From positions 1 to 64,000 of the forward strand of contig NZ_JAAKXY010000009.1 in NCBI RefSeq assembly GCF_011043775.1: 64,000 nt of DNA, given 5' to 3'. The stretch is from Natronolimnobius sp. AArcel1 (GTDB taxonomy: Archaea > Halobacteriota > Halobacteria > Halobacteriales > Natrialbaceae). The notes under the pieces are model-generated. The model was not told the origin of the DNA. It worked only from the letters and a program-made list of their open reading frames with translations, and did no database searches. The position numbers and the translations under genes are program-made. This document shows positions 783 to 14,762 of this stretch, piece after piece; within the stretch, counting starts at the first letter, position 1; each line of letters starts with the position of its first letter.

Positions 783-845
783 ATATAACGAATGAGCCGA
801 GAAGATCACGGCTCTGAGGAACCCCGGTTAGCGGGTGGTTCCTCG
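783..845 (+). promoter_or_regulatory. TATA-like box and 5'-UTR hairpin before the acidic gene cluster
   Basis: An ATATAA box at 783-788 predicts a transcription start near 810-815. Directly after it lies an inverted repeat, GAGGAACC at 816-823 and GGTTCCTC at 837-844, a perfect 8-bp stem with a 13-base loop. Together they suggest a structured leader of about 75 bases before the start codon at 888. They also argue against the upstream ATG at 792, which would precede the predicted transcript start. Confidence 0.45.
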
Positions 846-887
846 AGTGTTCCGTACGACTGCACGTGCCGACCGGCCCGCCGGGTG

Positions 888-1967
888 ATGACCGACGGTG
901 GTCAGGCGGCGGCCGAAGAAACAGCTGATGAGGACAGTTCGGATGAGGCGGATGAATCGGAGCCAGACAACGAAGAATCAGCTGCTGAGACAGACGAATC
1001 GGAGGCGGACGACGAGGAGGTAGCTGACGAGGAGGTAGCTGACGAGGAAGCTGAATCGGAGGATGAACCAATAGATAACACGGAGGATGACGCCGAGTCT
1101 GAGTCGGACTCGGAAAGTGAGTCTGAAACCAGCAATGGAGAAGACGACAATGGGGAGGACGACGATGAGGAAGCAGATGCCACGGAGGGTGGCCACGATC
1201 AGAGTGCAGAAGACGTCTACGACGACGATGAGGCAAGTGGTGTCTTACATCTCGACCTGGATGGGCTGTACCTCGATTTGCTCGGACTCGAGGTGAATCT
1301 CAATCCGGTTTCGCTCGACGTGTCTGCACGGCCGGGTGAGAATAACCTTGTTGGAAACCTGCTTTCAGCGGTTTCGGGGCTGCTCGATGGCCCGAGTGCG
1401 CTCCTCGAGAAGGTGAAATCGCTGCTTGGGAAGCCCAAGGAGTTGCTCCAGTCGCTCTTTGAGGGAGTCCGAAGCAAACTCGGCGGGCTCATCAGTAAGC
1501 CGGTCGAGTTCATCAAGTCTGTGGTGGGTAAGCCAGCCGAATTGCTCAAGTCCGTGGTGAGCAAGCCAGTCGAGTTCCTTCGGTCGCTTGTAAGTAAGCC
1601 GGCATCGCTTCTCGGTGGCGGTGAGGCTGACGAAGAGACGGCCGAGGATGAAGAAGCAGACGAGGCGGAGACAGAGTCAGAAGAGACGGATGAGATGGCC
1701 GAACCCGAGAGTGACGAGGAGTCAGAGGCCGACGAAGGTGGACGTATTTCGGGAGTGCTCGAGCGGATTCGATCCGGTATTGCGTCGGCTGCGAACTGGG
1801 TGAAAGAGAAGTTCGTGGGCCTGATACCGGGCTTGCCGATTGAGGATCTCATTGCGATGGTCGTTCGCAAGAGCATCCAGACGTTGATCGAACAGGCAGA
1901 GAAACAGAGTGGCGACCAGCCAAGCGAGCAATCTGACGCTGAGACACAGGCGGAGGCACAATCATGA
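888..1967 (+). CDS. Acidic low-complexity protein with 11-residue amphipathic repeats
   Basis: About 359 residues, function unknown. After an acidic, probably disordered Asp/Glu/Ser segment comes a hydrophobic block (LHLDLDGLYLDLLGLEVNLN, soon followed by NLVGNLLSAVSGLLDG). I recall similar Leu-Gly blocks in unrelated proteins of unknown function in bacteria and haloarchaea. Next are six consecutive 11-residue units at 1428-1625, four of them SKPVEFIKSVV-like, which would form an amphipathic helix. A second acidic linker follows, then a Lys-bearing helical tail (RISGVLERIRSGIASAANWV). There is no signal peptide or clear transmembrane segment. An ATG at 792 would add 32 residues of unlike composition; I prefer 888 because of the TATA position. 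The end overlaps the next gene by ATGA, so the two are probably translationally coupled. Confidence 0.75.
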   Translation: MTDGGQAAAEETADEDSSDEADESEPDNEESAAETDESEADDEEVADEEVADEEAESEDEPIDNTEDDAESESDSESESETSNGEDDNGEDDDEEADATEGGHDQSAEDVYDDDEASGVLHLDLDGLYLDLLGLEVNLNPVSLDVSARPGENNLVGNLLSAVSGLLDGPSALLEKVKSLLGKPKELLQSLFEGVRSKLGGLISKPVEFIKSVVGKPAELLKSVVSKPVEFLRSLVSKPASLLGGGEADEETAEDEEADEAETESEETDEMAEPESDEESEADEGGRISGVLERIRSGIASAANWVKEKFVGLIPGLPIEDLIAMVVRKSIQTLIEQAEKQSGDQPSEQSDAETQAEAQS

Positions 1968-2551
1968 GTGACGAGACTACAACGGCCGATGACTCGAGTT
2001 CGAGTACCGACGCGATAGCAGATCGAATCGACTACGAAGCAATCGCCGAGAACATCGATATCGCCGAACTGGTCGAGGGAACTGAGTGGGAAGACGAGAT
2101 CGACGAGGAACAGCCACTCGGTGAAGCACTCGGCGGGCTTATCGGGGCCGTTCTCGGTCGAAAAGTCGGCGAGAGTATTGGTCGGTCCGTCGGCGATGTC
2201 GCACTCGAGGAGTTACTGGGTGCTGAAGAGCCCGAACTCGAGGAGGGTGAAGAAGACGAGGGTGAGGCCGATGATGCTGATGAGGAAGCGAGTGACGACG
2301 AAGAGAGCGCTGACGACGATGACGAAGATGAAGACGAGGAGGGCGAGGAAGATACTGCAGAGGGCGATGACGATGCGGAAAGCGAGGAAGACAGCGCAGA
2401 CGATGCGTCAGCCGAAGACGAGACAGACGCTGAGGGAGATGCAGCCGAGGAAACGGAAGACGAAGAAGGCGACGAGAGCGAGGCGGCAGAGAGCGAGAGT
2501 GAATCCACAGACGACGCCAACGATGAAACAGATGAGTCTGCAGAGGAGTAA
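1964..2551 (+). CDS. Acidic protein with a seven-glycine zipper
   Basis: 195 residues, function unknown. Residues 17-50 are acidic and helical (DAIADRIDYEAIAENIDIAE). Glycines 53, 57, 61, 65, 69, 73 and 77 follow each other exactly every four residues (GEALGGLIGAVLGRKVGESI), a classic glycine zipper that could pack helices or insert in a membrane. The remaining 110 residues are almost pure Asp, Glu, Ser and Ala and must be disordered. The start overlaps the previous stop as ATGA. The same zipper recurs in the next gene, so the two are probably diverged duplicates. There is no signal peptide. Confidence 0.75.
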   Translation: MSDETTTADDSSSSTDAIADRIDYEAIAENIDIAELVEGTEWEDEIDEEQPLGEALGGLIGAVLGRKVGESIGRSVGDVALEELLGAEEPELEEGEEDEGEADDADEEASDDEESADDDDEDEDEEGEEDTAEGDDDAESEEDSADDASAEDETDAEGDAAEETEDEEGDESEAAESESESTDDANDETDESAEE

Positions 2552-2605
2552 CTATGCGCGCCTGCATCGCTGTGAGTCGAGTACCTGCGGCTCGAGGTGG
2601 TTACG

Positions 2606-3514
2606 ATGAGTGAGACACAGGGACTGAAAGACATCGTCACAGAGGAGATCAGCAATCAGGTTAGCATCGCGAATCTGCTTGGTGATGGAAATCTCGAGGA
2701 TGAACTCGATGGTGGCGACCTCGGCGCGGCTGTTGGGCGGCAACTCGGCGAGCAGGTCGGCCGAGAACTCGGGGCGTCGATTGGCCGCGAGATGCACGAG
2801 ACGATGACCGAGCGGATGGCAACTGATGAGGATGGCGACGATGACGAGTCGGATGAGTCGGCCGCGCCTGAGCCATTACGATCTGCCGTCACAAGTGCAG
2901 TGCAGGCGGGCGTCAGCAACACAGTCGCCGAGAGCAACGTCGGTGAGTCAGTCTCCTCGCTGGCTGAATCTGCAACTGGCGATGATAATGGCGATGACGA
3001 CGGGCTGCTCGAGGATGCACTTGACCAGGAACTCGATATTGGCGGGTCCGACGACGCGGGTGAGGGCGATGACGACACAGACGATGCGGACGAGTCTGCT
3101 GACGAGGAGACCGCAGACGAGGACGACGAATCTGCCGGTGATGAGGAAGCGCCAGGAGATGACGACGATGAGTCAGCGGATGCAGATGCCGACTCCGACG
3201 AGAGCGACGACTCGGGGGCAGACGCCGAAGACCTCGAGGGCCTGCGCCGGGAAACACTCGAGGATTTCCTCGGGCTGATGTCTTACGACGATCTCCAGTC
3301 GGTTGCGAAAGACGTCGACGTAAAGGCGAACCTGAGCCGCGACGAGATGACCGACGAGATCATCGAGACGGTCTCGGACGGCGAGACGGAGTCGGAGTCC
3401 GACGATGAACAGAGCGAGCAAAGCGATAGCGGCGACGAAACCGAAAGCGAGAGTGAGAGCGAGAGTGAGAGCGAGGAAGACGACAGCGACACAGCGGAGT
3501 CGGAGGCTGACTAG
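2606..3514 (+). CDS. Acidic protein with glycine zipper and SAP/Rho-N-like C-terminal helix pair
   Basis: 302 residues, function unknown. ATG 2606 is preceded by GAGGTGG at 2594-2600, a good Shine-Dalgarno match five bases away, so it is preferred over GTG 2597. Residues 36-60 repeat the seven-glycine pattern of the previous protein (GDLGAAVGRQLGEQVGRELG). Acidic disorder follows. Near residues 212-256 lies a folded-looking stretch, TLEDFLGLMSYDDLQSVAKD followed by VDVKANLSRDEMTDEIIETV, which resembles SAP or Rho-N helix-loop-helix modules that often contact nucleic acid. The tail is Glu/Ser-rich. The SAP-like reading is by eye only. Confidence 0.75.
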   Translation: MSETQGLKDIVTEEISNQVSIANLLGDGNLEDELDGGDLGAAVGRQLGEQVGRELGASIGREMHETMTERMATDEDGDDDESDESAAPEPLRSAVTSAVQAGVSNTVAESNVGESVSSLAESATGDDNGDDDGLLEDALDQELDIGGSDDAGEGDDDTDDADESADEETADEDDESAGDEEAPGDDDDESADADADSDESDDSGADAEDLEGLRRETLEDFLGLMSYDDLQSVAKDVDVKANLSRDEMTDEIIETVSDGETESESDDEQSEQSDSGDETESESESESESEEDDSDTAESEAD

Positions 3515-3652
3515 TCGACCCTCGCCTCTCTCGTATGTCGTACTCGAGTCTCTCGTGTCTCGTGGCTTGAGACCATCTCTGGATCGGCGGATAGGGGCGT
3601 CCCTGCGTACCCCGGCACACAACTAACCCGCGACGATGGCAAAGACACGTCC

Positions 3653-4543
3653 ATGAGTGAGGACCTTCACGAGGAACTAACGGACGTTCTGGATCGGGCC
3701 TCGGCTGAGCGCGAGTCGCTGCTTGCGTCCGATGAGCAATCAGATGGGGACACAGAGACGGATTCGAGCGGGCTTCTCGAGGCTGCCGACGATGCCAGTG
3801 ACCTCCTCGAGTCGAACGAGCCGGGGGACGTACTCGAGGCACTCGAGTTGGATACGCTCCCAGACGGAAGCGACGCGTCGTCGATTCCAGAGGCGATTGC
3901 GGAGGGAGACAAAGCGGATGTGGCCACGCTCCAGCAACTGCTTCGCCTCGCGAATCTGGCCGATCACGACGCCGCCGAACTCGATGGGGCGCTCGAGTCG
4001 CTTCGTGATGGAATCGATGCTGGGACAGACGATAACGATGATGCTGAAGCTGAGGTGACGCCAGCTGACTCAGACGGAGATTCGAGCGACGACGCCGAGG
4101 CTGAAACACCCGAAGACACCGACGGCGAACCCGACGAATCGGACAGTTCCGATACCACATTTGAGTTGACGGAGCAACTTCGGTCGTCGATGAAGTCCTC
4201 ACTGAGTGACTTCAGCGAGGACATCGGCTCTCTGCAGGACGGCCTCGAGGCGGTCCAGTCGGGACTCAGTGATTCGGATGAAAGCGACGGCGACGCGGCC
4301 GATGGCGACGCGACCGATGACGATGAGAGCGCGCCTGATACCGACGAGGAGCGTACGGCTGACAGTGAGGGCGAGGAAGACGATGACCTACTCGAGGCAG
4401 ACCTCGAGCCTGATCTCGGCGGTGAGCGAGGAAACAGCGCTGGTGGGGACGGCACTCGGCATTCGACGATGGCACCGTCACCATCGAAACGCGCAGATAT
4501 GAAGGGGACCGCACGGTTCTCGACGATGCCAGACCGGAACTAG
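3653..4543 (+). CDS. Acidic protein with C-terminal STM(A)P repeats
   Basis: 296 residues, function unknown. It begins MSEDLHEELTDVLDRASAER, a short helix. A helical middle part (VATLQQLLRLANLADHDAAE) and a second helical block (LTEQLRSSMKSSLSDFSEDI) are separated by acidic, probably disordered linkers. The last 30 residues change character to basic and Ser/Thr/Met-rich, with TRHSTMAPSPSKRAD followed by TARFSTMPDR, two copies of a [HF]STM-[A]P motif that look like peptide docking sites. It lies 138 bases after the previous acidic gene on the same strand and probably belongs to the same locus. There is no signal peptide or membrane segment. Confidence 0.7.
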   Translation: MSEDLHEELTDVLDRASAERESLLASDEQSDGDTETDSSGLLEAADDASDLLESNEPGDVLEALELDTLPDGSDASSIPEAIAEGDKADVATLQQLLRLANLADHDAAELDGALESLRDGIDAGTDDNDDAEAEVTPADSDGDSSDDAEAETPEDTDGEPDESDSSDTTFELTEQLRSSMKSSLSDFSEDIGSLQDGLEAVQSGLSDSDESDGDAADGDATDDDESAPDTDEERTADSEGEEDDDLLEADLEPDLGGERGNSAGGDGTRHSTMAPSPSKRADMKGTARFSTMPDRN

Positions 4544-7007: not shown

Positions 7008-7082
7008 TGGGCGCTGCAGGATTTGAACCCGCGACAGCTTGGTCCGAAGCCAAGTACTCTGTCCAGACTGAGCTAAGCGCCC
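7008..7082 (-). tRNA. tRNA-Arg (anticodon TCG)
   Basis: On the minus strand the 75-nt cloverleaf has a perfect 7-bp acceptor stem (GGGCGCT with AGCGCCC), a 4-bp D stem with a TCAGTC..GGA loop, anticodon stem CTTGG/CCAAG around loop CTTCGGA, and T stem GCGGG/CCTGC around TTCAAAT. The anticodon is TCG and decodes CGA and related Arg codons. CCA is not encoded; the discriminator is A. A TATA-like CTTATACGG at about 7105-7113 lies 25-30 bases upstream. No intron is present. Confidence 0.95.
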
Positions 7083-14355: not shown

Positions 14356-14447
14356 TCACACTGCGTGATTACCACTCGCTTGCCGGCCGAATCGCCAGCA
14401 GGCGATAAGAGAGGCGAAAGGCCCTTAAGGACCACCCACCTACAGGA

Positions 14448-14762
14448 GAGTGGATAGGTCGGGCAGTTTGGCCCTGCTCACTACCCGCGCTATGGTCATT
14501 AGCGGGGACCAAATACCGCAGGCGTCCGGTCAGACCGGCCGGGGCCTCGGGAGCCAACAGAGAAGCCTCGTCCGTCGGGGACAGCGGTCCACGATGGCCG
14601 TCCGCAGGGACGTCCCATCGTGGTTAGTCGGCGACAGCCCATCAGGCGCGGAAGCGAGCAGTGGACCGTCGGACACCTGTCGCTCGACGGGTCGCGGGGT
14701 GGAGAAGGCAACCGGGATTCCCCCGGCCGGAACGCCGGGCAATTGCGGCCTCCACACTCATA
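14448..14762 (+). ncRNA. ffs: Signal recognition particle RNA (7S/SRP RNA)
   Basis: About 315 nt. Three diagnostic parts are visible. The helix 8 symmetric loop and GGAA-type tetraloop read CAGGCGCGGAAGCGAGCAG near 14643-14662. The Alu domain hairpins 3 and 4 (GGGCAG/CTGCTC and CGCTA/TAGCG) lie near 14461-14508. The two ends pair as helix 1: GAGTG and AGGTC at 14448-14460 with GGCCT and CACTC at 14747-14759. A TTAA box at 14425-14428 lies about 20 bases upstream. The SRP RNA scaffolds SRP19 and SRP54 and targets nascent membrane proteins; neither protein gene is in the window. Ends are uncertain by a few bases. Confidence 0.88.

Follow-up and report, generated by a model that had tools for sequence, protein, structure and literature searches.

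Four unannotated genes on the forward strand of DNA from the haloarchaeon Natronolimnobius sp. AArcel1, here called P1 to P4, form an operon that is conserved in haloarchaea and very probably belongs to the gas-vesicle system. Gas vesicles are the protein-walled floats of these archaeal cells. The stretch analysed (the window) is the initial 64 kb of contig NZ_JAAKXY010000009.1 (C9) of a 4.56-Mb genome. We assign P1–P4 to this system because they co-occur with gas-vesicle (gvp) genes, because relatives are placed in gvp operons and because P4 is homologous to the gas-vesicle protein GvpI. The genes are as follows.

792–1967, plus strand: gene P1, 391-residue open reading frame (ORF); acidic, with a hydrophobic-stripe core, 11-residue repeats and C-terminal helices.
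1964–2551, plus strand: gene P2, 195-residue ORF; a glycine zipper, then a long acidic tail.
2606–3514, plus strand: gene P3, 302-residue ORF; a glycine zipper, an acidic linker and a SAP-like domain.
3653–4543, plus strand: gene P4, 296-residue ORF; an extended-GvpI paralogue by profile comparison and reciprocal hmmsearch.

A conserved haloarchaeal operon and its association with gvp genes

In one set of 213 Halobacteriales genomes, filtered at 95% completeness, we found the P1 core in 74 and the gas-vesicle family PF00741 in 93. One P1 match, in the gvp-less genome G145 (E 2.9e-4), was set aside after the data had been seen because it resembles a second weak match, in G049, where a protein of secreted appearance (L109:7944–8537) holds a weak version of the core. 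With G145 left out, P1 was found in 73 of 93 gvp-positive genomes, all carrying PF00741 genes, and in none of the 120 gvp-negative ones (Fisher p 6e-39, and 5e-19 outside Natrialbaceae, p-values that ignore shared ancestry); counting it gives a table of 73/20/1/119 and the same conclusion. Of the 48 Natrialbaceae genomes, 45 carry the P1 locus together with gvp genes and three lack the two, and these three belong to genera with other members that possess both.

Outside Natrialbaceae, relatives of P1–P4 lie within or beside gvp operons (L105, L107, L108, L150, L156, L164, L165, L192 and L197). These lineages include Halocatena, YIM A00010 and Halalkalicoccus, and the relatives are annotated "hypothetical protein". 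On a plasmid of Halocatena salina, the only match of our plasmid search, the order is gvpO, gvpA / gvpF, gvpG, gvpH, three hypothetical proteins, gvpJ-type, gvpK, gvpL. The three hypothetical genes match the P1, P2/P3 and GvpI profiles and share a few bases with the adjacent genes; they are predicted to be translationally coupled between gvpH and gvpJ. The first-pass annotation, made from the letters of the DNA, had known of no function for the four genes; co-occurrence and operon placement narrow this to the gas-vesicle system.

Gene order is likewise conserved. We searched the window's own genome together with 60 relatives and found matches to P1 in 36 of these 61 genomes, to P2 in 34, to P3 in 36 and to P4 in 32, with the best matches adjoining one another. 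The first-pass annotation had proposed that conserved order and co-occurrence would speak for a system, and the neighbourhood search bore this out: the order P1-P2-P3-P4 was kept in 52 of 66 named loci, and P1 and P2 were adjacent in 63. The operon occurs in Natrialba, Natrinema, Natronorubrum, Natronococcus, Halopiger, Haloterrigena and Haladaptatus, and further in Halogeometricum, Halogranum, Halegenticoccus, Haloarcula, Halalkalicoccus and Halocatena. The scan of named genome contigs used patterns built from haloarchaeal sequences. No member appeared outside haloarchaea in a 296-genome phylum-wide sample, bacteria not having been searched by a sensitive profile.

The four genes are real. 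Their plus-strand ORFs end at 1967, 2551, 3514 and 4543; P1 and P2 share an ATGA overlap at 1964–1967, and gaps of 54 and 138 bases separate P2 from P3 and P3 from P4. Aspartate and glutamate make up 30–47% of the proteins. This layout and the acidic composition agree with the first-pass annotation; of the extent that it gave, 888–4543, the gene ends stand, and the start of P1 is likelier at 792, as a conserved N-terminus and an upstream element suggest. None of the four proteins matched Pfam or NCBIfam above family cut-offs. Genes outside annotated records were called with a simple codon-usage caller.

The window's own genome carries its main gvp cluster (A, N, O, F, G, H, I, J, K, L, M) on a different contig from P1–P4, at about 29.3–36.3 kb of G000:C3, with gene names resting on order, on PF00741, PF05800 and AAA matches and on similarity between loci. 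A suspected truncation of gvpH there was dismissed, as tblastn shows one open frame. A second copy of the P1–P4 locus in this genome was also rejected: the DNA matches (L002, L003) span only about 50–140 bases, in the acidic low-complexity part of the second gene. Elsewhere, lone extra gvpA-like genes lie far from the gvp clusters (L127, L128; G005:C3:5911 and G028:C1:3196595), L130 (G030:C3) and G003:C8 hold a second, smaller gvp-like set (two GvpA/J/M-type genes, GvpK and GvpF/L) besides the main cluster, and the GvpO of this cluster type at L114:15736–16302 has an N-terminal DUF5763 zinc-finger-like domain. In many Natrialbaceae (L095–L098 and many of L134–L196) the P1–P4 operon directly follows, on the 3' side, a conserved gene run that looks like cobalamin biosynthesis.

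P4 is related to GvpI

Two parts of P4 are conserved.

3767–4012, plus strand: helical N-terminal part of P4, residues 39–120 (alignment of 29 orthologues).
4454–4540, plus strand: P4 tail, HSTMAPSPSKRADMKGTARFSTMP; strongly conserved, with STxP repeats common to GvpI.

Profile comparison makes P4 a paralogue of the extended GvpI that these organisms also carry (hhalign 99.3%, E 8.6e-21). Searched against all called proteins of the fetched loci, the P4 profile matched no protein outside P4 and GvpI at E <10; for the GvpI profile, the one match beyond these two families was a short protein in the GvpI position of genome G007. This all-protein control matters because both families are acidic. 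The match is weakest for the GvpI of the window's own genome (E 1.5). The position between gvpH and gvpJ is occupied in the same genomes by GvpI itself, not P4. The STM(A)P tail motifs singled out in the first-pass annotation proved highly conserved.

An invariant core and variable repeats in P1

ATG 792 is most likely the start of P1, with 888 an internal ATG, because the N-terminus read from 792 is conserved and because this ATG sits 30 bases past a conserved 30-bp element. That N-terminus, MSREDHGSEEPR...RRVMTDGGQA, resembles MTTGLEDVGSEE...RRLMTDGGQA of the orthologues. Three regions follow.

1233–1397, plus strand: invariant core of P1, SGVLHLDLDGLYLDLLGLEVNLNPVSLDVSARPGENNLVGNLLSAVSGLLDGPSA, residues 116–170 numbered from 888 (alignment of 35 orthologues).
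1428–1622, plus strand: 11-residue amphipathic repeat region of P1 (lag-11 autocorrelation), lineage-specific.
1743–1910, plus strand: C-terminal helix pair of P1, moderately conserved; AlphaFold2 helices 175–201 and 207–230 of a fragment beginning at residue 112.

Residues 116–170 are almost invariant, consisting of an alternating-hydrophobic stretch and then GNLLSAVSGLLD. The conserved part of P1 is this 55-residue hydrophobic-stripe motif, rather than the 11-residue units that had been taken for its defining module; those vary by lineage and are missing in the deepest orthologues. Their periodicity itself is sound, with 22 identities at lag 11 in residues 171–245, a value that none of 20,000 shuffles reached, whichever lag between 3 and 33 was taken. 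We count four good units, one degenerate and one partial where six had been listed: GKPKELLQSLF, EGVRSKLGGLI (degenerate), SKPVEFIKSVV, GKPAELLKSVV, SKPVEFLRSLV and SKPASLLGGG (truncated). AlphaFold2 models P1 poorly (mean pLDDT 61), placing short helices across the repeats, and a profile of the core matched nothing meaningful among solved structures.

Glycine zippers and a SAP-like domain in P2 and P3

Glycine zippers were found in P2 and P3, as the first-pass annotation had said.

2114–2197, plus strand: glycine-zipper helix of P2; conserved columns, weak Gly-zipper Pfam matches under cut-off.
2711–2833, plus strand: glycine-zipper helix of P3, residues 36–76; AlphaFold2 helix, pLDDT about 85.
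3224–3394, plus strand: SAP-like three-helix domain of P3, residues 207–263; pLDDT 92–96.

P2 and P3 have an N-terminal region and the zipper in common, a weak but direct similarity. Because some lineages (for example L108 and L110) hold a single protein that combines a zipper with a SAP-like end, this suggests that P2 and P3 arose through duplication. The C-terminal end of P3 looks SAP-like, as had been noticed, and is confidently modelled as three helices instead of the pair first described. Its best structural matches are the SAP domains 1zbh, 2rno and 8kd1, all weak (Z 4.3–6.5, Foldseek E >1), and its best SAP score in Pfam is E 0.027 with 14.5 bits, under the cut-off of 26.3. The P3 profile matched nothing meaningful among solved structures. 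We rejected SAP-like P3 matches in G046 and G059 (L106, L111), which lie in a ribosomal gene cluster or another context without gvp genes.

A conserved element upstream of P1

732–761, plus strand: conserved 30-bp promoter-like element, CGCAYACGCAAGG..AAYYACCACAACGCT; 5' of P1 in most Natrialbaceae loci.

In the Natrialbaceae compared, the element ends 23–30 bases before the P1 ATG (30 bases before ATG 792 in the window), and it is single-copy in its own genome with up to 3 mismatches allowed. We infer that it acts as a promoter-like element of the operon. It was not found in Natrialbaceae gvp intergenic regions. The top match outside P1 loci in 1.58 Mb scanned was L165:1360–1389, a gvpA–gvpF intergenic region in a lineage whose P1–P4 genes come after gvpL. 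We did not retain the element as the mark of a shared gvp regulon, as it is missing from the Natrialbaceae regions and matches well in one gvp-linked lineage with different spacing; co-regulation of P1–P4 with gvp through it is only a lead. A different element, GCTTGCAGTCGCAG, occurs in two copies in each gvpA–gvpF intergenic region of L114, L115 and L118, with looser GCTTGCA variants in L119, L123, L129 and L131, and is a possible gvp control site. Elsewhere in the window are an ordinary archaeal signal recognition particle (SRP) RNA (14447–14758, plus strand) and an ordinary tRNA-Arg gene (7008–7082, minus strand).

P1 and GvpC

The gas-vesicle (vac) regions of Natrialba magadii, Natrinema pellirubrum, Natronobacterium gregoryi, Halopiger xanaduensis and Haladaptatus paucihalophilus have been described as lacking gvpC and gvpDE (PMC4390858; for N. 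magadii also PMC3403918). Of the 213 genomes, 8 carry strong multi-repeat matches to PF05465 (Halo_GVPC, a repeat of 32 positions), and P1 is missing from all 8 (p 1e-6, or 3e-4 with Natrialbaceae left out, the genomes being related). Single weak PF05465 matches in G073, G079 and G094, none beside gvp genes, were excluded from the GvpC count after inspection; G094 does have P1. The window's own genome has no PF05465 match. Diverged members may be missed in both the P1 and the GvpC counts. The Natrialbaceae genome G007 (L116, G007:C7) has a different gvp cluster and no P1 match, and between gvpA and an AAA gene it encodes a 416-residue protein that no Pfam family recognizes and that may be GvpC-like, judging by its position and sequence features. 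This cluster apparently adjoins chemotaxis-like genes.

Discussion

We propose that P1–P4 are a second gas-vesicle operon, usually detached from the main gvp cluster, as in Natrialbaceae, and carried by haloarchaea with gvp sets that contain no GvpC and, according to published work, no GvpD/E. P1 would anchor on the shell or its growing edge through the invariant hydrophobic-stripe core and the amphipathic helices, turn its acidic tails to the cytoplasm, and coat and stabilize the shell instead of GvpC. P2 and P3, whose glycine-zipper helices match, would oligomerize through these and serve P1 as a bridge or scaffold, and P4 would have a part in assembly or size control like that of GvpI. We infer shell binding, GvpC-like stabilization, oligomerization and expression of the genes. 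As a whole, this mechanism (a GvpC-like P1 coat, a P2/P3 scaffold and a GvpI-type P4) falls a little short of an even chance. The GvpC-like role of P1, which we suggest because P1 is absent from GvpC genomes, because the literature reports vac regions without gvpC and because P1 has amphipathic helical units, is about as tentative or slightly more so. Equally or slightly more doubtful is the view that P1–P4 replace GvpC without being homologous to it, as an unrecognized coat of several proteins (a hydrophobic-stripe anchor, amphipathic-helix units and a glycine-zipper scaffold) through which the seemingly incomplete gvp clusters of Natrialbaceae and relatives would be functional. The first-pass annotation had imagined the modules assembling on the hydrophobic surface of a membrane, granule or vesicle; this is supported in part, and co-occurrence and operon placement make the body in question very probably a gas vesicle.

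Several observations weigh against a P1 coat. The strains with these vac regions were reported as gas-vesicle-negative (PMC4390858), which makes expression of P1–P4 uncertain, and a table in a 2022 review gives gvpC for the same species, contrary to the earlier papers (PMC9501494). Neither Pfam nor PF05465 revealed sequence similarity between P1 and GvpC. About 12 gvp-positive genomes have neither P1 nor a detected GvpC, and the exclusivity of the two may reflect two gvp-cluster lineages, not replacement. Furthermore, the 11-residue repeats are lineage-specific, and AlphaFold2 gives the P1 core no confident fold.

P1–P4 could instead be an assembly chaperone module, keeping GvpA/J/M soluble or nucleating shells and absent from the finished shell. 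Halocatena and YIM A00010 have their relatives of P1 and P2/P3 in the midst of accessory assembly genes, with gvpH on one side and gvpI on the other; GvpI, of which P4 is a paralogue, is like GvpH an accessory protein, and the two form a heterodimer (PMC9501494); and a solubilizing role would suit the high acidity and disorder. The amphipathic repeats and the absence of P1 from GvpC genomes suit a coat better, however, and we regard a chaperone as rather unlikely, although a serious contender. With their glycine zippers, acidic disordered tails and one small helical domain, P1–P4 would also lend themselves to multivalent bridging, and could then cluster or position finished vesicles without stiffening the shell, like GvpU and GvpT of Bacillus megaterium; non-essential clustering proteins are known from another gvp system (PMC11445434). 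That likeness would be one of role, and we consider such an organizer improbable, although with the chaperone it is one of the two main rivals to a coat.

SAP domains frequently bind DNA, and a DNA-binding P3 could make the operon a regulatory module that replaces GvpD/GvpE and controls gvp expression. The clusters lack gvpDE (PMC4390858), and the best match of the P1 upstream element outside P1 loci is in a gvpA–gvpF intergenic region. Yet the SAP match is weak, the element is missing from the Natrialbaceae gvp regions, no transcription-factor fold is recognizable, the proteins are very acidic and P1 and P2 carry hydrophobic modules, so that we give regulation a low probability. It is very improbable that P1–P4 are membrane, storage-granule or stress proteins that merely accompany gvp genes. 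In Natrialbaceae the locus is not linked to gvp, and the secreted-looking L109 protein has a weak P1-like core, but against this stand the placement in gvp operons in several lineages, the P4–GvpI homology and the joint absence from some genomes of genera whose other members carry both.

Interest in gas vesicles comes from their nature as protein-shelled organelles and from their use as ultrasound reporters. GvpC binds the outer face of the shell and strengthens it, and is the known handle for tuning vesicle stiffness. P1 would offer a second handle if it proves to be another sort of coat. Our proposal also bears on why many gvp-bearing haloarchaea were reported without vesicles, as tests and transfers confined to the 11-gene cluster would miss four genes located elsewhere in the genome. 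Moreover, more than 70 genomes hold these four hypothetical-protein families, for which a testable function can now be named.

Among known proteins, the extended form of GvpI, as in Natrialba magadii (Nmag_0338), can be aligned to most of P4, with STxP tail repeats in both. P4 differs in being a separate gene outside the gvp cluster that coexists with GvpI and in lacking the basic C-terminal RIYGxRFE end. The modelled P3 tail has a SAP-like three-helix layout (closest families SAP_new25 and Rho_N), and P2 and P3 have GxxxG runs (closest families Gly-zipper_YMGG and Rick_17kDa_Anti), but all their sequence scores are below family cut-offs; unlike those of the glycine-zipper families, their zippers have charged residues interspersed among the glycines and seem not to be transmembrane. 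GvpU and GvpT resemble P1–P4 as non-core gas-vesicle proteins that could organize vesicles, in a host and gene set unlike those described here. P1 would work like GvpC (PF05465), with amphipathic helical repeats and acidic tails, and it is present where GvpC is absent. By contrast, its repeat is 11 residues long with a KP helix start, compared with 32–40 residues in GvpC, the sequences are dissimilar, and P1 has in addition a conserved hydrophobic-stripe core and three partner genes.

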